From NCBI RefSeq assembly GCF_900167975.1, contig NZ_FUZU01000002.1, positions 565,501 through 629,500 on the forward strand: DNA of 64,000 nt. The letters are read 5' to 3'. Made by a program: the position numbers and the translations under genes. The notes below the pieces were generated by a model, which did no database searches, was not told the DNA's origin, and was given only the letters and a program-made list of their open reading frames with translations. Numbering within the stretch: position 1 is the first letter of the stretch; each line of letters begins with the position of its first letter. Source of the stretch: Ohtaekwangia koreensis (GTDB lineage: Bacteria > Bacteroidota > Bacteroidia > Cytophagales > Cyclobacteriaceae). Shown piece after piece: positions 11,064 to 47,861 of the stretch.

Positions 11064-11462
11064 TTATATAGCATTTTGTTTCGAACGGATAAACCGTTTA
11101 TCGATCCATTGTAATATCAGAATGAAGGCGATGCCAAACAGAGCGACTCCTTTGTAGCGAGATATACCTTCAAGAAATCCTGCCTGAAGTTTAAATTCCG
11201 TCATTGAAATAGATACGATCAAAGTAACGATGAGTAAAAAGATTCCGGCACACATCCAGAAATATTCGCGCTTTGCCGATTGAGCTTGTTGTTGCTTAAT
11301 TTTACCGATTACCTTGGCAGCAAAGGAAGCTGGCAAAACAAAATCAGGCTCCTTTTCAAGTACGCTGAAAATTCGCCGGTAAATTTTTTCATCAGCGTCA
11401 TTGCCTGTAACAGGCAATCCAGCTTCAATTTTTTCCTGTATAGTTTTATCTGCTTCACTCAT
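11064..11462 (-). CDS. Putative membrane anti-sigma factor
   Basis: A 132-residue protein with a soluble N-terminal half (about 70 residues) and two predicted membrane helices (about 73-95 and 105-122). Its ATG overlaps the stop of the upstream ECF sigma gene in an ATGA arrangement, which favours 11462 over an ATG two codons earlier. I see no zinc-binding HxxxCxxC anti-sigma motif. The anti-sigma role is inferred from position, topology and size only. Confidence 0.6.
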   Translation of the reverse strand: MSEADKTIQEKIEAGLPVTGNDADEKIYRRIFSVLEKEPDFVLPASFAAKVIGKIKQQQAQSAKREYFWMCAGIFLLIVTLIVSISMTEFKLQAGFLEGISRYKGVALFGIAFILILQWIDKRFIRSKQNAI

Positions 11463-12022
11463 AACCATTCTTCTTTAACACTATATTTCTTTACTTTCTC
11501 TTTTAAGAGTGTTCGTGCTCTGAAAATATAATTTTTTACTGTGCCCCCTGGCATATTGGTAACTGCTCCGATCTCGTCATACGTCATTCCTTCCTGATGA
11601 TAAAGTATCAAAACTGTTTTATAGTTCACAGGAAGTTCATCCACCAATTTTAATACAAAAACGTCCAAATCTTTTTCTTCCATTAATGATTCAGGACTTT
11701 CTTCATTCACAAAATACGCAGAGAAACTTTCCTCTTCGGGTATTTCACTGAACGGTATTTTATTCTTTCGCATGTGGTTGATCGCATGGCGATACGCAAT
11801 GGTTGCGATCCACGTGGAAAGTTTAGATTGAAAATTAAACTCTCCAAGCTTTTCATATACTTTCAAGAATACATCCTGACAAAGTTCTTCACGCTCTTCG
11901 TCATTTTTCACTAGCCTGCTAATCATATGCGCAACAAGCCTTTCATGCTGTCGTATCAACTGCGTGAAGGCTTGCATATCTCCTCGTATAATTCTAGAGA
12001 TTAGCGTCCGGTCGTCTATCAT
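11459..12022 (-). CDS. ECF-type RNA polymerase sigma factor
   Basis: A 187-residue sigma-70 family factor with region 2 (about residues 22-90, including the EELCQDVFLKVYEKL and FQSKLSTWIATIAYRHAINHMRK core- and -10-binding segments) and region 4 (about 125-180, helix-turn-helix YHQEGMTYDEIGAVTNMPGGTVKNYIFRARTLLKEK). Size and spacing are typical of extracytoplasmic-function sigma factors. It is co-transcribed with a putative membrane anti-sigma gene. Its own upstream region carries a bipartite element repeated in mirror image before the divergent gene, suggesting autoregulation. The start codon is only about 7 bp past the proposed -10 element, so the mRNA may be nearly leaderless. Confidence 0.9.
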   Translation of the reverse strand: MIDDRTLISRIIRGDMQAFTQLIRQHERLVAHMISRLVKNDEEREELCQDVFLKVYEKLGEFNFQSKLSTWIATIAYRHAINHMRKNKIPFSEIPEEESFSAYFVNEESPESLMEEKDLDVFVLKLVDELPVNYKTVLILYHQEGMTYDEIGAVTNMPGGTVKNYIFRARTLLKEKVKKYSVKEEWL

Positions 12023-12029
12023 TGGGTTG

Positions 12030-12063
12030 TTAGACAGGTGTAGATTAAAAGATGTTGCAGGAA
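12030..12063 (-). promoter_or_regulatory. Predicted ECF-dependent promoter of the sigma/anti-sigma operon
   Basis: On the minus strand a TTCCTGCAACATCTT block (12063-12049) contains a TGCAAC -35 core. After exactly 18 bp comes GTCTAA (12035-12030) as the -10 element. An identical 15-bp block with the same 18-bp spacing and GTCTTA drives the opposite direction. The AAC/GTC pair with this spacing resembles ECF promoters. Confidence 0.65.
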
Positions 12064-12122
12064 AATAGTAAAATGTTTTAGAGTCAAAATATCAAAACCT
12101 TAGTATTCCGAAAGTTTTAAAA

Positions 12123-12156
12123 TTCCTGCAACATCTTGTCCTGGACCTGTGTCTTA
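12123..12156 (+). promoter_or_regulatory. Predicted ECF-dependent promoter of the 12197 gene
   Basis: The block TTCCTGCAACATCTT (12123-12137) and GTCTTA (12151-12156) are separated so that TGCAAC and GTCTTA are 18 bp apart, as in the mirror-image promoter of the sigma gene. Transcription would begin near 12163. That rules out a GTG start at 12149 and supports ATG 12197. Confidence 0.65.
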
Positions 12157-12196
12157 CGCCATAAAACAATTCGAAAACTTTAACACATACAATATT

Positions 12197-12535
12197 ATGG
12201 AACACGTACTCATGCCCATCGCAATTTTTGGAAGCTTCGGAACAACCCTGTATTTCTTCACGAAAGTGCTTACAGACTATATTCTTAAAAAGAAGATGAT
12301 TGATAAAGGTTTTGTGAACGAAGAGAGCCAATCTATTTTTAAAGATTATAGCGCAGAGAATAAGTATTCATCTTTGAAGTGGGGGTTGATCGCTTTCTTC
12401 TCCGGCATCTCATTAATCCTTATGGATTACCTGGATGTTCGTCCTGACTCAACGCTTCCATACGGAATTTTTGCAGTTGCTTTATCCCTTGGATTTCTAA
12501 TCTATTACTTCCTGGTAAAGAAATTTACCAAGTAA
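12197..12535 (+). CDS. Small membrane protein (DUF6249-like)
   Basis: A 112-residue protein with three hydrophobic segments (about residues 4-24, 61-78 and 84-105) around a charged loop. It starts at the ATG at 12197 rather than a GTG 48 bp upstream, because the GTG lies inside the proposed -10 element. The layout resembles DUF6249 proteins of Bacteroidota, which have no known function. It is divergent from the ECF sigma gene and shares its promoter motif. It is therefore a probable member of that sigma factor's regulon, perhaps a target or regulator at the membrane (inference). Confidence 0.65.
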   Translation: MEHVLMPIAIFGSFGTTLYFFTKVLTDYILKKKMIDKGFVNEESQSIFKDYSAENKYSSLKWGLIAFFSGISLILMDYLDVRPDSTLPYGIFAVALSLGFLIYYFLVKKFTK

Positions 12536-12588: not shown

Positions 12589-15018
12589 ATGATCAGGAAT
12601 TATATCCAGGTTGCTCTGCGCAGCTTGCGCAGGCATAAATTTTTTTCATTCATTAATATTTTTGGTCTCGCGATCAGTATGTCTGTTTGCCTTGGCATTA
12701 TGATGTTGGTCGCAGATCAAATGATGGCCGATCGCTATAATACAAAACGTGATCGGATATATCGCGTGGTTACTCGTTACCTTAATGCAGACGGATCTAC
12801 ATCCGGCAATGATTACGCTACATCGCCACAACCTATAGCTCAATCTCTTTTAGATGATTATACCGGAGTTTCGAAAGCTGTTCGTATTCGCAGAAAGTTT
12901 GGAAACAATTGGATGGAGTTAGACCCGGGGCGAGATGTAAACATTCCATTGTCAGGATTTTTTGTGGATGCTGATGCATTGGATGTTTTTGAATATGAGC
13001 TGGAGCATGGAGATCCCAAAACAGCTCTAAGAGATCCATACTCTGTTGTTCTTACAAAGAAAGCTGCCAGAAAATTATTCAAGGTTAGCAATCCTGTAGG
13101 GGAAGTAATCAAGGTAGGAAAGCTCGGTGAGTATAAAGTCACAGGTATCATAAAAGAGTCCAATCACAAATCACATATTGTCTTCGAAGGATTAGCGTCC
13201 TATTCCACTATTAAAAGTTTAGAGGCCGACAGTACTTTTGAAAGCAGTGATTCAGGGTGGGATAATTTTACGTCCGGATGGGTTTATCTTTTATTGGAGG
13301 AAGGACATTCTCCTCAAGAAATTGAAAGCCATTTGAACGATATCGTTAAAAAACGAGAAGCAAAAAATGGTGACAAAAAAAGTGAACGTACAACGAAGTA
13401 TTATCTTCAGAATATTTCCAGCATAACACCAGGAGCGTTCATTAATAATCCCATTGGTCCATTTATGCCAATGATCTTTGTTTACTTTTTCGGTGGACTT
13501 GCGCTCATCATTATGATAACGTCTTGTTTTAACTATACCAATCTTTCAATCGCTCGTGCATTAACGCGCGCGAAAGAAATTGGTGTGAGAAAAGTGAACG
13601 GTGCACATCGCTATCAAATATTTGTACAATTTATTTCTGAAGCAGTTGTTATAGCACTCTTCGCGTTGGGGTTAGCTCTCTTATTTTTACAAGTTGTAAA
13701 ACCGTTCATGCTAAACCTTCGCTTCGCCCAAGCATTGAAATGGGATCTCGAAGAAAATGTTTATGTATATATAGTCTTCTTGTTGTTCAGCATTTGCATC
13801 GGATTGTTTGCAGGTTTTTTTCCCGCTGTAATACTTTCAAAATTTCAACCGGCAAAAGTGTTGAAGAATATAGGAGGGATGAAGCTGCTCTCAAAAATGG
13901 GCTTGCGTAAATCTTTGCTTGTCGTGCAGTTTAGCCTTTCATTAATTTTCATAATCTCTGTTCTTATACTGTACAACCAACTTCAACTTTTTGTACGGGC
14001 CGATCATGGTTTCGATATGGCAAACAAGATCAGCATTCAGCTAAACAACACATCTTATACAACACTGAAAGCGCAACTTGCTACCTATAGCAATATCGAA
14101 AATATATCTGCAGCATCGCATATACCTGCAACCGGCATTACATATGGCGATGATTTCAAAAAGGGAACAAGCGATAAAGATGTTGTGATGGTAGACTACT
14201 TCAGCGTAGATGAGCAATACTTAGACAATATGAATATAGCATTGTTGGCAGGTACGAATTTTGATCCACAGGCCGTTGAAAAAAATAAGCGCTCCGTTAT
14301 TCTTAATGAAGAGGCTGTAAAGAGTTTTCATCTTAACTCGCCGCACGATGCCATCGGAGAATTTATCTATTTGAATTCGGACTCCTCAAAATTTGAGATC
14401 ATTGGTGTTGTAAAAAATTACAATCACCAGATGATGGTGAGCAAAGTTCAAGCGATGGCGTTACGCTATAATCCTGATGAATTTTATACACTGCAGGTAA
14501 AGTATACGGGAAGTCATGAAGATGCAGTGAAGAACATTGAATCTGCCTGGGCAAAAATCAATCCGTCTCTTAAAATTGACTATAAGAATTTCGATGAAGA
14601 GATCCGCTCGTTTTACAAAACTATATTCAGCGACTTTGTGAACATCATTGGTGTGATCGCTTTTATGGCTATCGTTATTTCATGTCTTGGTTTGTTAGGG
14701 ATGGCTACGTATGCGACAGAAACAAGACTAAAAGAAATTTCAATTCGTAAAGTTTTAGGATCAAGCGATGGTGCACTAGTGCTGCTACTTTCCAAAGGTT
14801 TCGCTTCATTACTTGCTATAGCAATTGTTCTTGCTGTGCCGGCTGCATGGTTCATCAATAATTTATGGTTACAGCTAATAGCCTATAGGACCGAGTTAAG
14901 CATTGGCGTGATTGGAACAAGTGTATTAATTCTGATTTTGCTGGGAGGCATTACGATCGGATCGCAAACTATTCGAGCAGCATTCGCCAATCCTGTTGAT
15001 AACTTAAAAAACGATTAG
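12589..15018 (+). CDS. FtsX-like/MacB-type ABC transporter permease
   Basis: An 809-residue permease with an N-terminal membrane helix (about residues 20-42), a MacB-type periplasmic domain (about 50-250), FtsX helices (about 290-425), a second periplasmic domain and a second FtsX block (about 675-800). This duplicated layout is typical of Bacteroidota permeases that work in macrolide/lipoprotein/peptide-type efflux or mechanotransmission. The conserved KEIGVRKVNGA and KEISIRKVLGS segments follow the usual first FtsX loop in each half. No ATPase gene adjoins it, so its partner must be encoded elsewhere. The substrate is unknown. It starts 53 bp after the small membrane gene and may be co-transcribed. 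Confidence 0.85.
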   Translation: MIRNYIQVALRSLRRHKFFSFINIFGLAISMSVCLGIMMLVADQMMADRYNTKRDRIYRVVTRYLNADGSTSGNDYATSPQPIAQSLLDDYTGVSKAVRIRRKFGNNWMELDPGRDVNIPLSGFFVDADALDVFEYELEHGDPKTALRDPYSVVLTKKAARKLFKVSNPVGEVIKVGKLGEYKVTGIIKESNHKSHIVFEGLASYSTIKSLEADSTFESSDSGWDNFTSGWVYLLLEEGHSPQEIESHLNDIVKKREAKNGDKKSERTTKYYLQNISSITPGAFINNPIGPFMPMIFVYFFGGLALIIMITSCFNYTNLSIARALTRAKEIGVRKVNGAHRYQIFVQFISEAVVIALFALGLALLFLQVVKPFMLNLRFAQALKWDLEENVYVYIVFLLFSICIGLFAGFFPAVILSKFQPAKVLKNIGGMKLLSKMGLRKSLLVVQFSLSLIFIISVLILYNQLQLFVRADHGFDMANKISIQLNNTSYTTLKAQLATYSNIENISAASHIPATGITYGDDFKKGTSDKDVVMVDYFSVDEQYLDNMNIALLAGTNFDPQAVEKNKRSVILNEEAVKSFHLNSPHDAIGEFIYLNSDSSKFEIIGVVKNYNHQMMVSKVQAMALRYNPDEFYTLQVKYTGSHEDAVKNIESAWAKINPSLKIDYKNFDEEIRSFYKTIFSDFVNIIGVIAFMAIVISCLGLLGMATYATETRLKEISIRKVLGSSDGALVLLLSKGFASLLAIAIVLAVPAAWFINNLWLQLIAYRTELSIGVIGTSVLILILLGGITIGSQTIRAAFANPVDNLKND

Positions 15019-45716: not shown

Positions 45717-46313
45717 TCAGAATTTTTTGCTGATGGCTGTATTGATGTCTTTTTTCAACTCTTGAATAAGGTCTGATGCGTTACCAAAATGGCAGGCGTT
45801 ACGAAAACTTTCGAGGAATTTTGATGTGTCAGGAAGATCTATCTTTGAGGTCTCTTCATTTAATTTCTTTTTTGCGCGAAAAAATAATTGCCGGCAATGG
45901 TCCTTTTTCTTATCGAATGTTTGCTGGAGTTCCTCGTAATCAAAATCAAAAACTTCTTTTAATAAATAAACAGCGCGTTCAAGCGGCTCGAGTTTAGCAT
46001 GAAGAACTTTAATGGCCGTATCCATATCCAGATGAGCCAGATTAGTTTCCTTGAAATGTTTAATCATCACGGAAACATTATCTATATACTCTTCCTTTTT
46101 CTTACGAAGAGAATTAAGATGATTTAAGCAATTATTCGTGACAGCACGAATTAGATATGCTTTCGTATTTTCAATTTTTTGCTGATCAATACTTAGCCAC
46201 TTTACAAAAGTTTCCTGAACAATATCTTCTGCATCTTCTTTGCAACGCACCAGGTTATAGGCGATGGTATGAAGAAGTGGTTGATATTGCGATATGATCT
46301 GTGCTTTGTTCAT
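45717..46313 (-). CDS. ECF sigma factor with short C-terminal tail
   Basis: A 198-residue sigma-70 family factor. Region 2 is at about residues 6-75 (YNLVRCKEDAEDIVQETFVKW, KAYLIRAVTNNCLNHL), and region 4 is at about 105-155 (LEPLERAVYLLKEVFDFDYEELQQTF). A tail of about 35 residues follows (SKFLESFRNACHFGNASDLIQELKKDI). It resembles the first helix of the SnoaL-type extension found in ECF41/SigJ-type factors, but the full domain is missing. No anti-sigma gene adjoins it. It lies between two desaturase genes, so a role in membrane lipid adaptation is inferred. Confidence 0.8.
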   Translation of the reverse strand: MNKAQIISQYQPLLHTIAYNLVRCKEDAEDIVQETFVKWLSIDQQKIENTKAYLIRAVTNNCLNHLNSLRKKKEEYIDNVSVMIKHFKETNLAHLDMDTAIKVLHAKLEPLERAVYLLKEVFDFDYEELQQTFDKKKDHCRQLFFRAKKKLNEETSKIDLPDTSKFLESFRNACHFGNASDLIQELKKDINTAISKKF

Positions 46314-47737: not shown

Positions 47738-47823
47738 GCCCTGGTGGTGGAATTGGTAGACACGCAGGACTTAAAATCCTGTGGCTAGTAATAGCTGTGC
47801 GGGTTCAAGTCCCGCCCGGGGTA
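47738..47823 (+). tRNA. tRNA-Leu (anticodon TAA)
   Basis: An 86-nt class II tRNA with a long variable arm. The acceptor GCCCTGG pairs with CCGGGGT (two wobble pairs). The anticodon loop CTTAAAA has TAA at 47772-47774. The T-arm is GCGGGTTCAAGTCCCGC. No encoded CCA. Confidence 0.95.
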
Positions 47824-47861
47824 CAAAGGACAGGTGAATCACCTGTCCTTTGTTATTTTCT
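47824..47861 (+). terminator. Intrinsic terminator after tRNA-Leu
   Basis: A perfect 13-bp stem (47824-47836 with 47840-47852) has loop AAT and is followed by a T-rich tail. It begins at the base after the tRNA. Confidence 0.85.

Follow-up and report, generated by a model that had tools for sequence, protein, structure and literature searches.

Between two divergently oriented genes of Ohtaekwangia koreensis, one for an ECF sigma factor and the other for a small predicted membrane protein, lie two copies of a promoter-like motif that point away from each other, which raises the question whether they form a pair of promoters read by the neighbouring sigma factor itself, or whether they serve another factor. 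We examined this locus in the window, by which we mean the whole stretch of 64,000 nucleotides that was analysed, and in related genomes. The sigma factor gene (positions 11459-12022, minus strand, ATG at 12022) encodes 187 amino acids that score above cut-off against PF04542 (55.3 bits), PF08281 (50.5 bits) and TIGR02937 (103, cut-off 42.9); having regions 2 and 4, no match to region 3 and this length, the protein belongs to the ECF sigma factors (sigma-70 group 4), and the solved structures nearest to it by profile include SigH, RpoE and SigW. Its stop codon overlaps the start of a second minus-strand gene (11468/11459), which encodes a candidate anti-sigma factor of 134 amino acids (11064-11468). 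On the opposite side, a plus-strand gene (12197-12535) encodes a protein of 112 amino acids that matches DUF6249 (PF19762, 39.2 bits, cut-off 33), as do the corresponding neighbours at four other loci (37.7-72.1 bits), and its hydrophobic sequence suggests a membrane protein. The listed start of this gene, a GTG at 12149 that opens a frame of 128 amino acids, falls within the -10 region described below, so that the ATG at 12197, from which the 112-residue protein matching DUF6249 is read, is the likely start. The next gene, for a MacB/FtsX-type ABC permease of 809 amino acids (12589-15018, plus strand; PF12704 and PF02687, with MacB_PCD at 113.3 bits and FtsX at 66.3 bits, both above cut-off), probably belongs to the same operon, and the order of DUF6249 gene and permease gene is the same in three other genomes of the genus (G002, G005 and G006). 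With 257.8 bits for TIGR03434 against an NCBI cut-off of 622.3, this permease is not an ADOP duplicated permease. The window also contains a second sigma-type gene (45717-46313, minus strand, 198 amino acids, PF04542 match), which is without a TGCAAC/GTC element before it.

A sequence-only reading of this DNA had described an exact 15-bp inverted repeat and a TGCAAC that is followed in both directions, after 18 bp, by GTCT(A/T)A, with one copy directed at the ECF sigma gene and the other at a small membrane gene, and these observations hold. The arms of the repeat lie at 12049-12063 and 12123-12137, inside a longer pair of 35 nt (12029-12063 and 12123-12157) that is 74% complementary, and such repeats are rare by chance: in 40 Markov sequences, exact 15-bp inverted repeats within 120 bp averaged 0.025 per 64 kb. 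The window contains two and only two matches to the full motif, TGCAAC-N18-GTCTWA, one at 12030-12059 on the minus strand and one at 12127-12156 on the plus strand, which face outwards, whereas 100 dinucleotide shuffles of the window gave a mean of 0.01 matches and none of them contained two. The motif pair is real and not a product of chance. On the sigma side, the first arm holds the -35 element TGCAAC (12059-12054), followed by an 18-bp spacer and the -10 element GTCTAA (12035-12030); on the DUF6249 side, the second arm holds the -35 element TGCAAC (12127-12132), which is likewise followed after 18 bp by the -10 element GTCTTA (12151-12156). The two -35 elements are separated by 67 bp (12060-12126), of which neither the length nor the sequence is conserved. 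Apart from this pair of arms, the window holds just one exact 15-bp inverted repeat (47823/47839), which forms a tight hairpin (47823-47853) directly behind an apparent tRNA 3' end, and is probably a terminator.

The conservation of the two elements was followed over 62 sigma-gene loci, 49 of them from genomes of the same GTDB family, nine from further named records and four from other families. The family search covered 196 genomes, of which 47 hold a sigma orthologue at E<=1e-50 and were all read, G002 and G005 being added from the genus search; the four loci from other families of the same class were taken from 295 genomes searched. Left out were seven of 17 further loci, whose upstream sequence is identical to that of another locus, and a distant locus in Holophagales (L147). 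Redundancy among the 62 loci is low, with only five pairs of promoters that are at least 90% alike, and the relatives include Chryseolinea, Parachryseolinea and Dawidia together with metagenome bins labelled Cyclobacteriaceae, Flammeovirgaceae or otherwise. Among cultured bacteria, the locus is present for example in Chryseolinea serpens DSM 24574 (L134) and Parachryseolinea silvisoli (L146). In a recount over the 80 nt before each ATG, with no built-in preference for any gap length, every one of the 62 loci contained exactly one candidate for the sigma-side element, TGCAAC-N17/18-G(T/A)C. The -35 is an exact TGCAAC in 60 loci and carries one mismatch in two, the spacing is 18 bp in 53 and 17 bp in nine, and the element has the marks of an ECF promoter throughout, with AAC in the -35 of all 62 and with GTC (56 loci) or GAC (six loci) in the -10. 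A facing element, TGCAAC-N17/18/19-GTC or GAC, precedes the small membrane gene in 56 of the 62 loci. The facing promoter is missing in L117, L212, L275 and L286, and was not found within the 459 bp available for L127; L140, for which only 55 bp could be searched, is also counted among the six loci without it. In L212, a DUF6249-like gene, recognised by eye, sits downstream, inside the sigma operon.

Within the genus, the sigma orthologue is present in six of the seven genomes (G000, the organism's own, to G006), the five sequences from outside G000 being 67-98% identical to that of G000, and the DUF6249 gene has the same distribution, both orthologues being missing from G001. All six sigma-positive genomes keep both promoter elements, at -35 to -35 distances of 67, 66, 65, 65, 54 and 43 bp, and across the genus the two sides share only TGCAACA(T) and TGTC(T/C)(A/T)AC. 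Since the elements and their internal spacing are kept and the sequence between them is not, the arrangement points to two independent promoters rather than to a symmetric operator. At some loci (L122-L126, L129, L209 and L210) the facing -35 elements are merely 11-23 bp apart, a separation at which two polymerases could hardly occupy both of them simultaneously.

Divergent ECF promoters read by the sigma factor encoded at 11459-12022 are the best explanation of this locus, and in our judgement a highly probable one. The autoregulated promoter pair that had been proposed from the window thus gains support from comparison: both elements are kept, the sigma gene and the DUF6249 gene occur together, and a paralogous locus carries a different, again matched, pair. 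This claim rests on the locus and not on the genome-wide count of the motif, and we infer the binding by this sigma factor, the anti-sigma role of its neighbour, the start sites and the signal.

The paralogous ECF sigma factor (L018, G000:C6:1355705-1356214) is 32% identical to that of the window and is present in all seven genomes of the genus (orthologues L016, L017 and L019-L022). In G000, G001, G002, G005 and G006 its gene is preceded by TGTAAC-N18-GTCAAA with a gap of 7-9 nt to the ATG, while in G003 and G004 the -10 reads GTCCAA and the gap is 10-11 nt. A facing TGTAAC-N18-GTCAAA lies before a small DUF6249-type gene in four of the seven genomes (G000, G002, G005 and G006), the DUF6249 protein scoring 72.1 bits in G000; the facing element reads GGTAAC-N18-GTCAAA in G001 and is weaker or doubtful in G003 and G004. 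The two circuits share one layout, and each bears a distinct motif on both sides, which argues that each sigma factor would read its own pair. The form TGTAAC-N18-GTC(A/G)AA was also seen 17 nt before the ATG of one permease gene in G003 (L266) and one in G004 (L265).

It had further been suggested to search the genome for the motif and to see whether its matches precede genes that respond to expression of this sigma factor. Enrichment is weak or absent in two of the three motif forms; in the third, 13 of the 28 sites outside the locus lie before MacB/FtsX permeases. With the reversed motif as control, the search with loose spacing of 16-20 gave nine sites in the organism's own genome (7.24 Mb) against eight for the control, and TGCAACAN16TGTCTWA with one mismatch gave 41 sites against 66 in the seven genomes, for which lack of enrichment the one-mismatch strict motif was rejected as a regulon finder. 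Only TGCAACM-N17-GTCTNA is enriched, with 38 sites against 12 in the genus genomes and eight against three in the own genome. Genome-wide, the motif is weakly or not enriched, and alone it is a poor predictor. Ten of the 38 sites belong to the locus discussed here and 28 lie elsewhere. The 13 permease sites are found 20-52 nt before the start of the gene, where about 0.007 would be expected, assuming 63 such genes; as to the other outside sites, four, with a presumed fifth in G002, lie before a small secreted protein, two before a secreted protein of another kind, three before an apparent serine hydrolase gene (recognised by eye) and five inside open frames. One of these permeases, permease A, has the element in all six sigma-positive genomes and is without it in G001; permease B has it in four of six genomes, and G001 is without a close orthologue of the latter (best 43%). 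In G003 (L234) and G004 (L236), orthologues of the window permease found at a distance from the DUF6249 gene have their own copy of the motif, and the motif is absent before the orthologue in G001 (L235) and before a second relative in G003 (L237). As a general rule for MacB/FtsX permeases the motif was rejected, since it precedes three of the 30 genes read in the own genome. These permeases make up a very large paralogous family, with 112 MacB_PCD matches in the own genome, which come from roughly 60 genes, both halves being matched in many of these.

One could also speculate that the divergent ECF promoters are read mainly by another ECF factor, or are shared, the neighbouring sigma gene being one client among several. 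The genome offers ample candidates, with 64 matches to sigma region 2, and the accessible part of a published study suggests that ECF regulons overlap in Flavobacterium psychrophilum (PMC9723704). Motif sites moreover persist in G001, which is without this sigma gene, namely 52 nt before a permease (L217) and before a small secreted protein (L052), where the sequence may be recognised by another factor or the matches may be due to chance. A different main reader, or a shared one, is nevertheless unlikely, given that the sigma gene, the DUF6249 gene and the facing elements are found together in 56 of the 62 loci, that the matched pair at the paralogous locus follows a different motif, and that permease A is without its element in the sole genus genome without the sigma gene. 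The sites before the small secreted protein (L006, L052, L057 and L058) read TGCAAC-N18-GTCTTA and are preceded by a conserved TTGCGC, and, since they persist in G001, they may be read by another factor.

Returning to promoters read by the adjacent sigma factor, we considered the position of the -10 element relative to the gene. The gap between the -10 and the ATG of the sigma gene is 7 nt in the window and in 42 of the 62 loci altogether, 8 nt in seven, 9 nt in six, 10 nt in five, and 6 and 11 nt in one each, whereas the corresponding gap before the DUF6249 gene is 21-43 nt (38 loci). From work on sigma-E of E. coli, the C of the -10 box is position -10. The predicted transcription start of the sigma gene is 12023 or 12022, thus either immediately ahead of the ATG or at its first base; the other loci with a gap of 7 nt would behave likewise, and in the remaining loci the start would fall a few bases earlier. 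A gap this narrow predicts a sigma mRNA with no leader, or with almost none. The facing promoter has a predicted start near 12163, which would give the DUF6249 message an ordinary leader of about 34 nt. In the intergenic region, a plain pattern search found no TAnnTTTG housekeeping element in the six genus genomes, and a scan for sigma-70-type sites gave eight against 5.5 in shuffles.

The short gap might instead reflect a longer coding sequence, starting at a TTG or GTG 15 nt upstream, and in many loci an in-frame TTG or GTG does occur at -15, within the -10 element. We regard this as very improbable, as gaps of 8, 10 and 11 nt shift the frame, a stop codon directly precedes the ATG in some loci (L125, L127 and L128), the bases between are poorly conserved, and transcription from this promoter would start only after the TTG or GTG codon. 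The predicted leaderless geometry is confined to few sigma-type genes of the organism. Of its 64 region-2 matches, 61 were read (three long or partial frames being dropped) and 48 could be given an ATG, among them at least three that are RpoD-like by eye and not ECF. A 7-nt distance from element to ATG was seen only for the window gene and for the paralogue L161, a lower bound in view of the crude start calls, and any AAC-N17-19-GTC pair within 70 nt is found in five of the 48 against a shuffle mean of 0.97. A leaderless message as a general rule for the sigma-type genes of this genome was rejected, the geometry being present in only two of 48.

Least probable of all is that the 15-bp inverted block, which according to the sequence-only reading may also bind a regulator, serves a dimeric or looping regulator as its operator, with the promoters elsewhere: although the block exceeds a bare -35, is an exact inverted repeat and is nearly intact in G006, the closest relative, the two sides share in four of the six genus genomes (G002-G005) only TGCAACA(T) plus at most a base or two adjoining, the distance between the copies varies over 43-67 bp in the genus and 11-355 bp over the 38 loci measured, with neither helical phase nor loop size kept, and what stays conserved is the -10 partner at fixed spacing, so that an operator was rejected on its unconserved flanks and variable distance, and binding of a regulator in addition to the promoters finds no support either.

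If the promoters are, as is probable, read by the neighbouring sigma factor, the overlapping gene at 11064-11468 is of particular relevance. Its product has no match in Pfam or NCBIfam, and none of its 12 matches to PDB sequences up to E 10 is an anti-sigma factor. The structure model (pLDDT 82.6, pTM 0.42) contains helices only, with N-terminal helices followed by two long helices predicted at residues 47-90 and 106-133, and has no fold match in the PDB at E<=0.001. In a profile comparison by hhalign, an alignment of the protein with 26 relatives matches the one in the same position in L211, a locus from another family (83.9%, E 7.7e-6). The L211 protein, which has only a sub-cut-off match to NF052375, contains the motif HxxxCxxC, as does the L212 protein; this motif is linked to zinc anti-sigma factors. 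An open reading frame of at least 80 amino acids is found in this position in 43 of 45 loci, the 17 further loci lying outside this count. On the strength of gene order, the 134-residue protein is probably the anti-sigma partner.

The circuit could then operate as follows. The partner, probably the 11064-11468 protein, would release the sigma factor, which, once freed, would activate the minus-strand promoter, giving positive feedback on the sigma and anti-sigma genes, and would also activate the plus-strand promoter and with it DUF6249 and the MacB/FtsX permease. Additional MacB/FtsX permease genes at other places in the genome probably have copies of the motif as their promoters, which gives the regulon the appearance of a response of the envelope or membrane.

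Autoregulated ECF operons of the RpoE/SigW kind consist of a sigma gene with its own promoter in front and an overlapping gene for a membrane anti-sigma factor. The present locus resembles them in a sigma factor with regions 2 and 4 only, in the AAC-containing -35 and GTC-containing -10 of what appears to be its own promoter, and in that the sigma gene overlaps the gene of a small protein with helices that are long and hydrophobic. It differs in that the partner is without a recognisable anti-sigma domain, in the second, facing promoter for DUF6249 and a MacB/FtsX permease, and in the predicted leaderless sigma message.

Within the Bacteroidota, the accessible parts of published reports offer several points of comparison. 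The ECF-type promoter SM6 of F. psychrophilum drives type IX secretion genes (PMC9723704) and the ECF-type promoter PM2 of Bacteroides thetaiotaomicron is linked to oxidative stress (PMC7366714), both unlike the locus described here; the letters TGCAAC are absent from the accessible text of the former report. In the Das/Dma system of Bacteroides (ECF21, with a dual membrane-spanning anti-sigma factor), an envelope-spanning type of regulator described there as found only in Bacteroidota, the ECF sigma factor is likewise encoded with its regulator, but the partner here has 134 residues and two long helices and would not span the outer membrane (PMC13088901, accessible part). A parallel to the predicted message is sigJ of Streptomyces coelicolor, an ECF sigma gene that the accessible part of a survey lists as leaderless and probably not driven by sigma-70; unlike sigJ, the present locus appears to be autoregulated, lies in Bacteroidota and is kept across a family (PMC3160421). 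The same part of that survey reports leaderless genes in one of 37 Bacteroidetes/Chlorobi genomes, with only Pribnow-type boxes scanned (PMC3160421), and in the accessible parts of the two transcriptome reports leaderless mRNAs amount to 5.5% in F. psychrophilum (PMC9723704) and leaders under 10 nt to about 3.7% in B. thetaiotaomicron (PMC7366714). In the literature searched, mostly without subscription papers, we found nothing on the function of DUF6249, leaving aside its single hit, a plant paper, and for Bacteroidota nothing on this motif or on an ECF loop with a leaderless message. The conservation across the family is new, and so are the prediction that the sigma message is leaderless and the connection with DUF6249 and with MacB/FtsX permeases.

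Whether one ECF sigma group has made leaderless translation part of its feedback, in a phylum with few leaderless messages, and with DUF6249 and MacB-like permeases as its first output, is in our view about evenly balanced. If true, the sigma gene, unlike the neighbouring target, would be locked to its own -10, and ribosomes or conditions favouring leaderless mRNAs could throw the switch; the distance of mostly 7 nt between -10 and ATG makes this a sharp and cheaply checked prediction on leaderless positive feedback. The genomes of Bacteroidota related to Chryseolinea contain sigma-type genes by the dozen, and for ECF signalling in these bacteria the locus gives a motif, a list of targets and two matched paralogous circuits. 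It also offers a first suggestion of how DUF6249, and some of the many MacB/FtsX permeases of these genomes, may be regulated.
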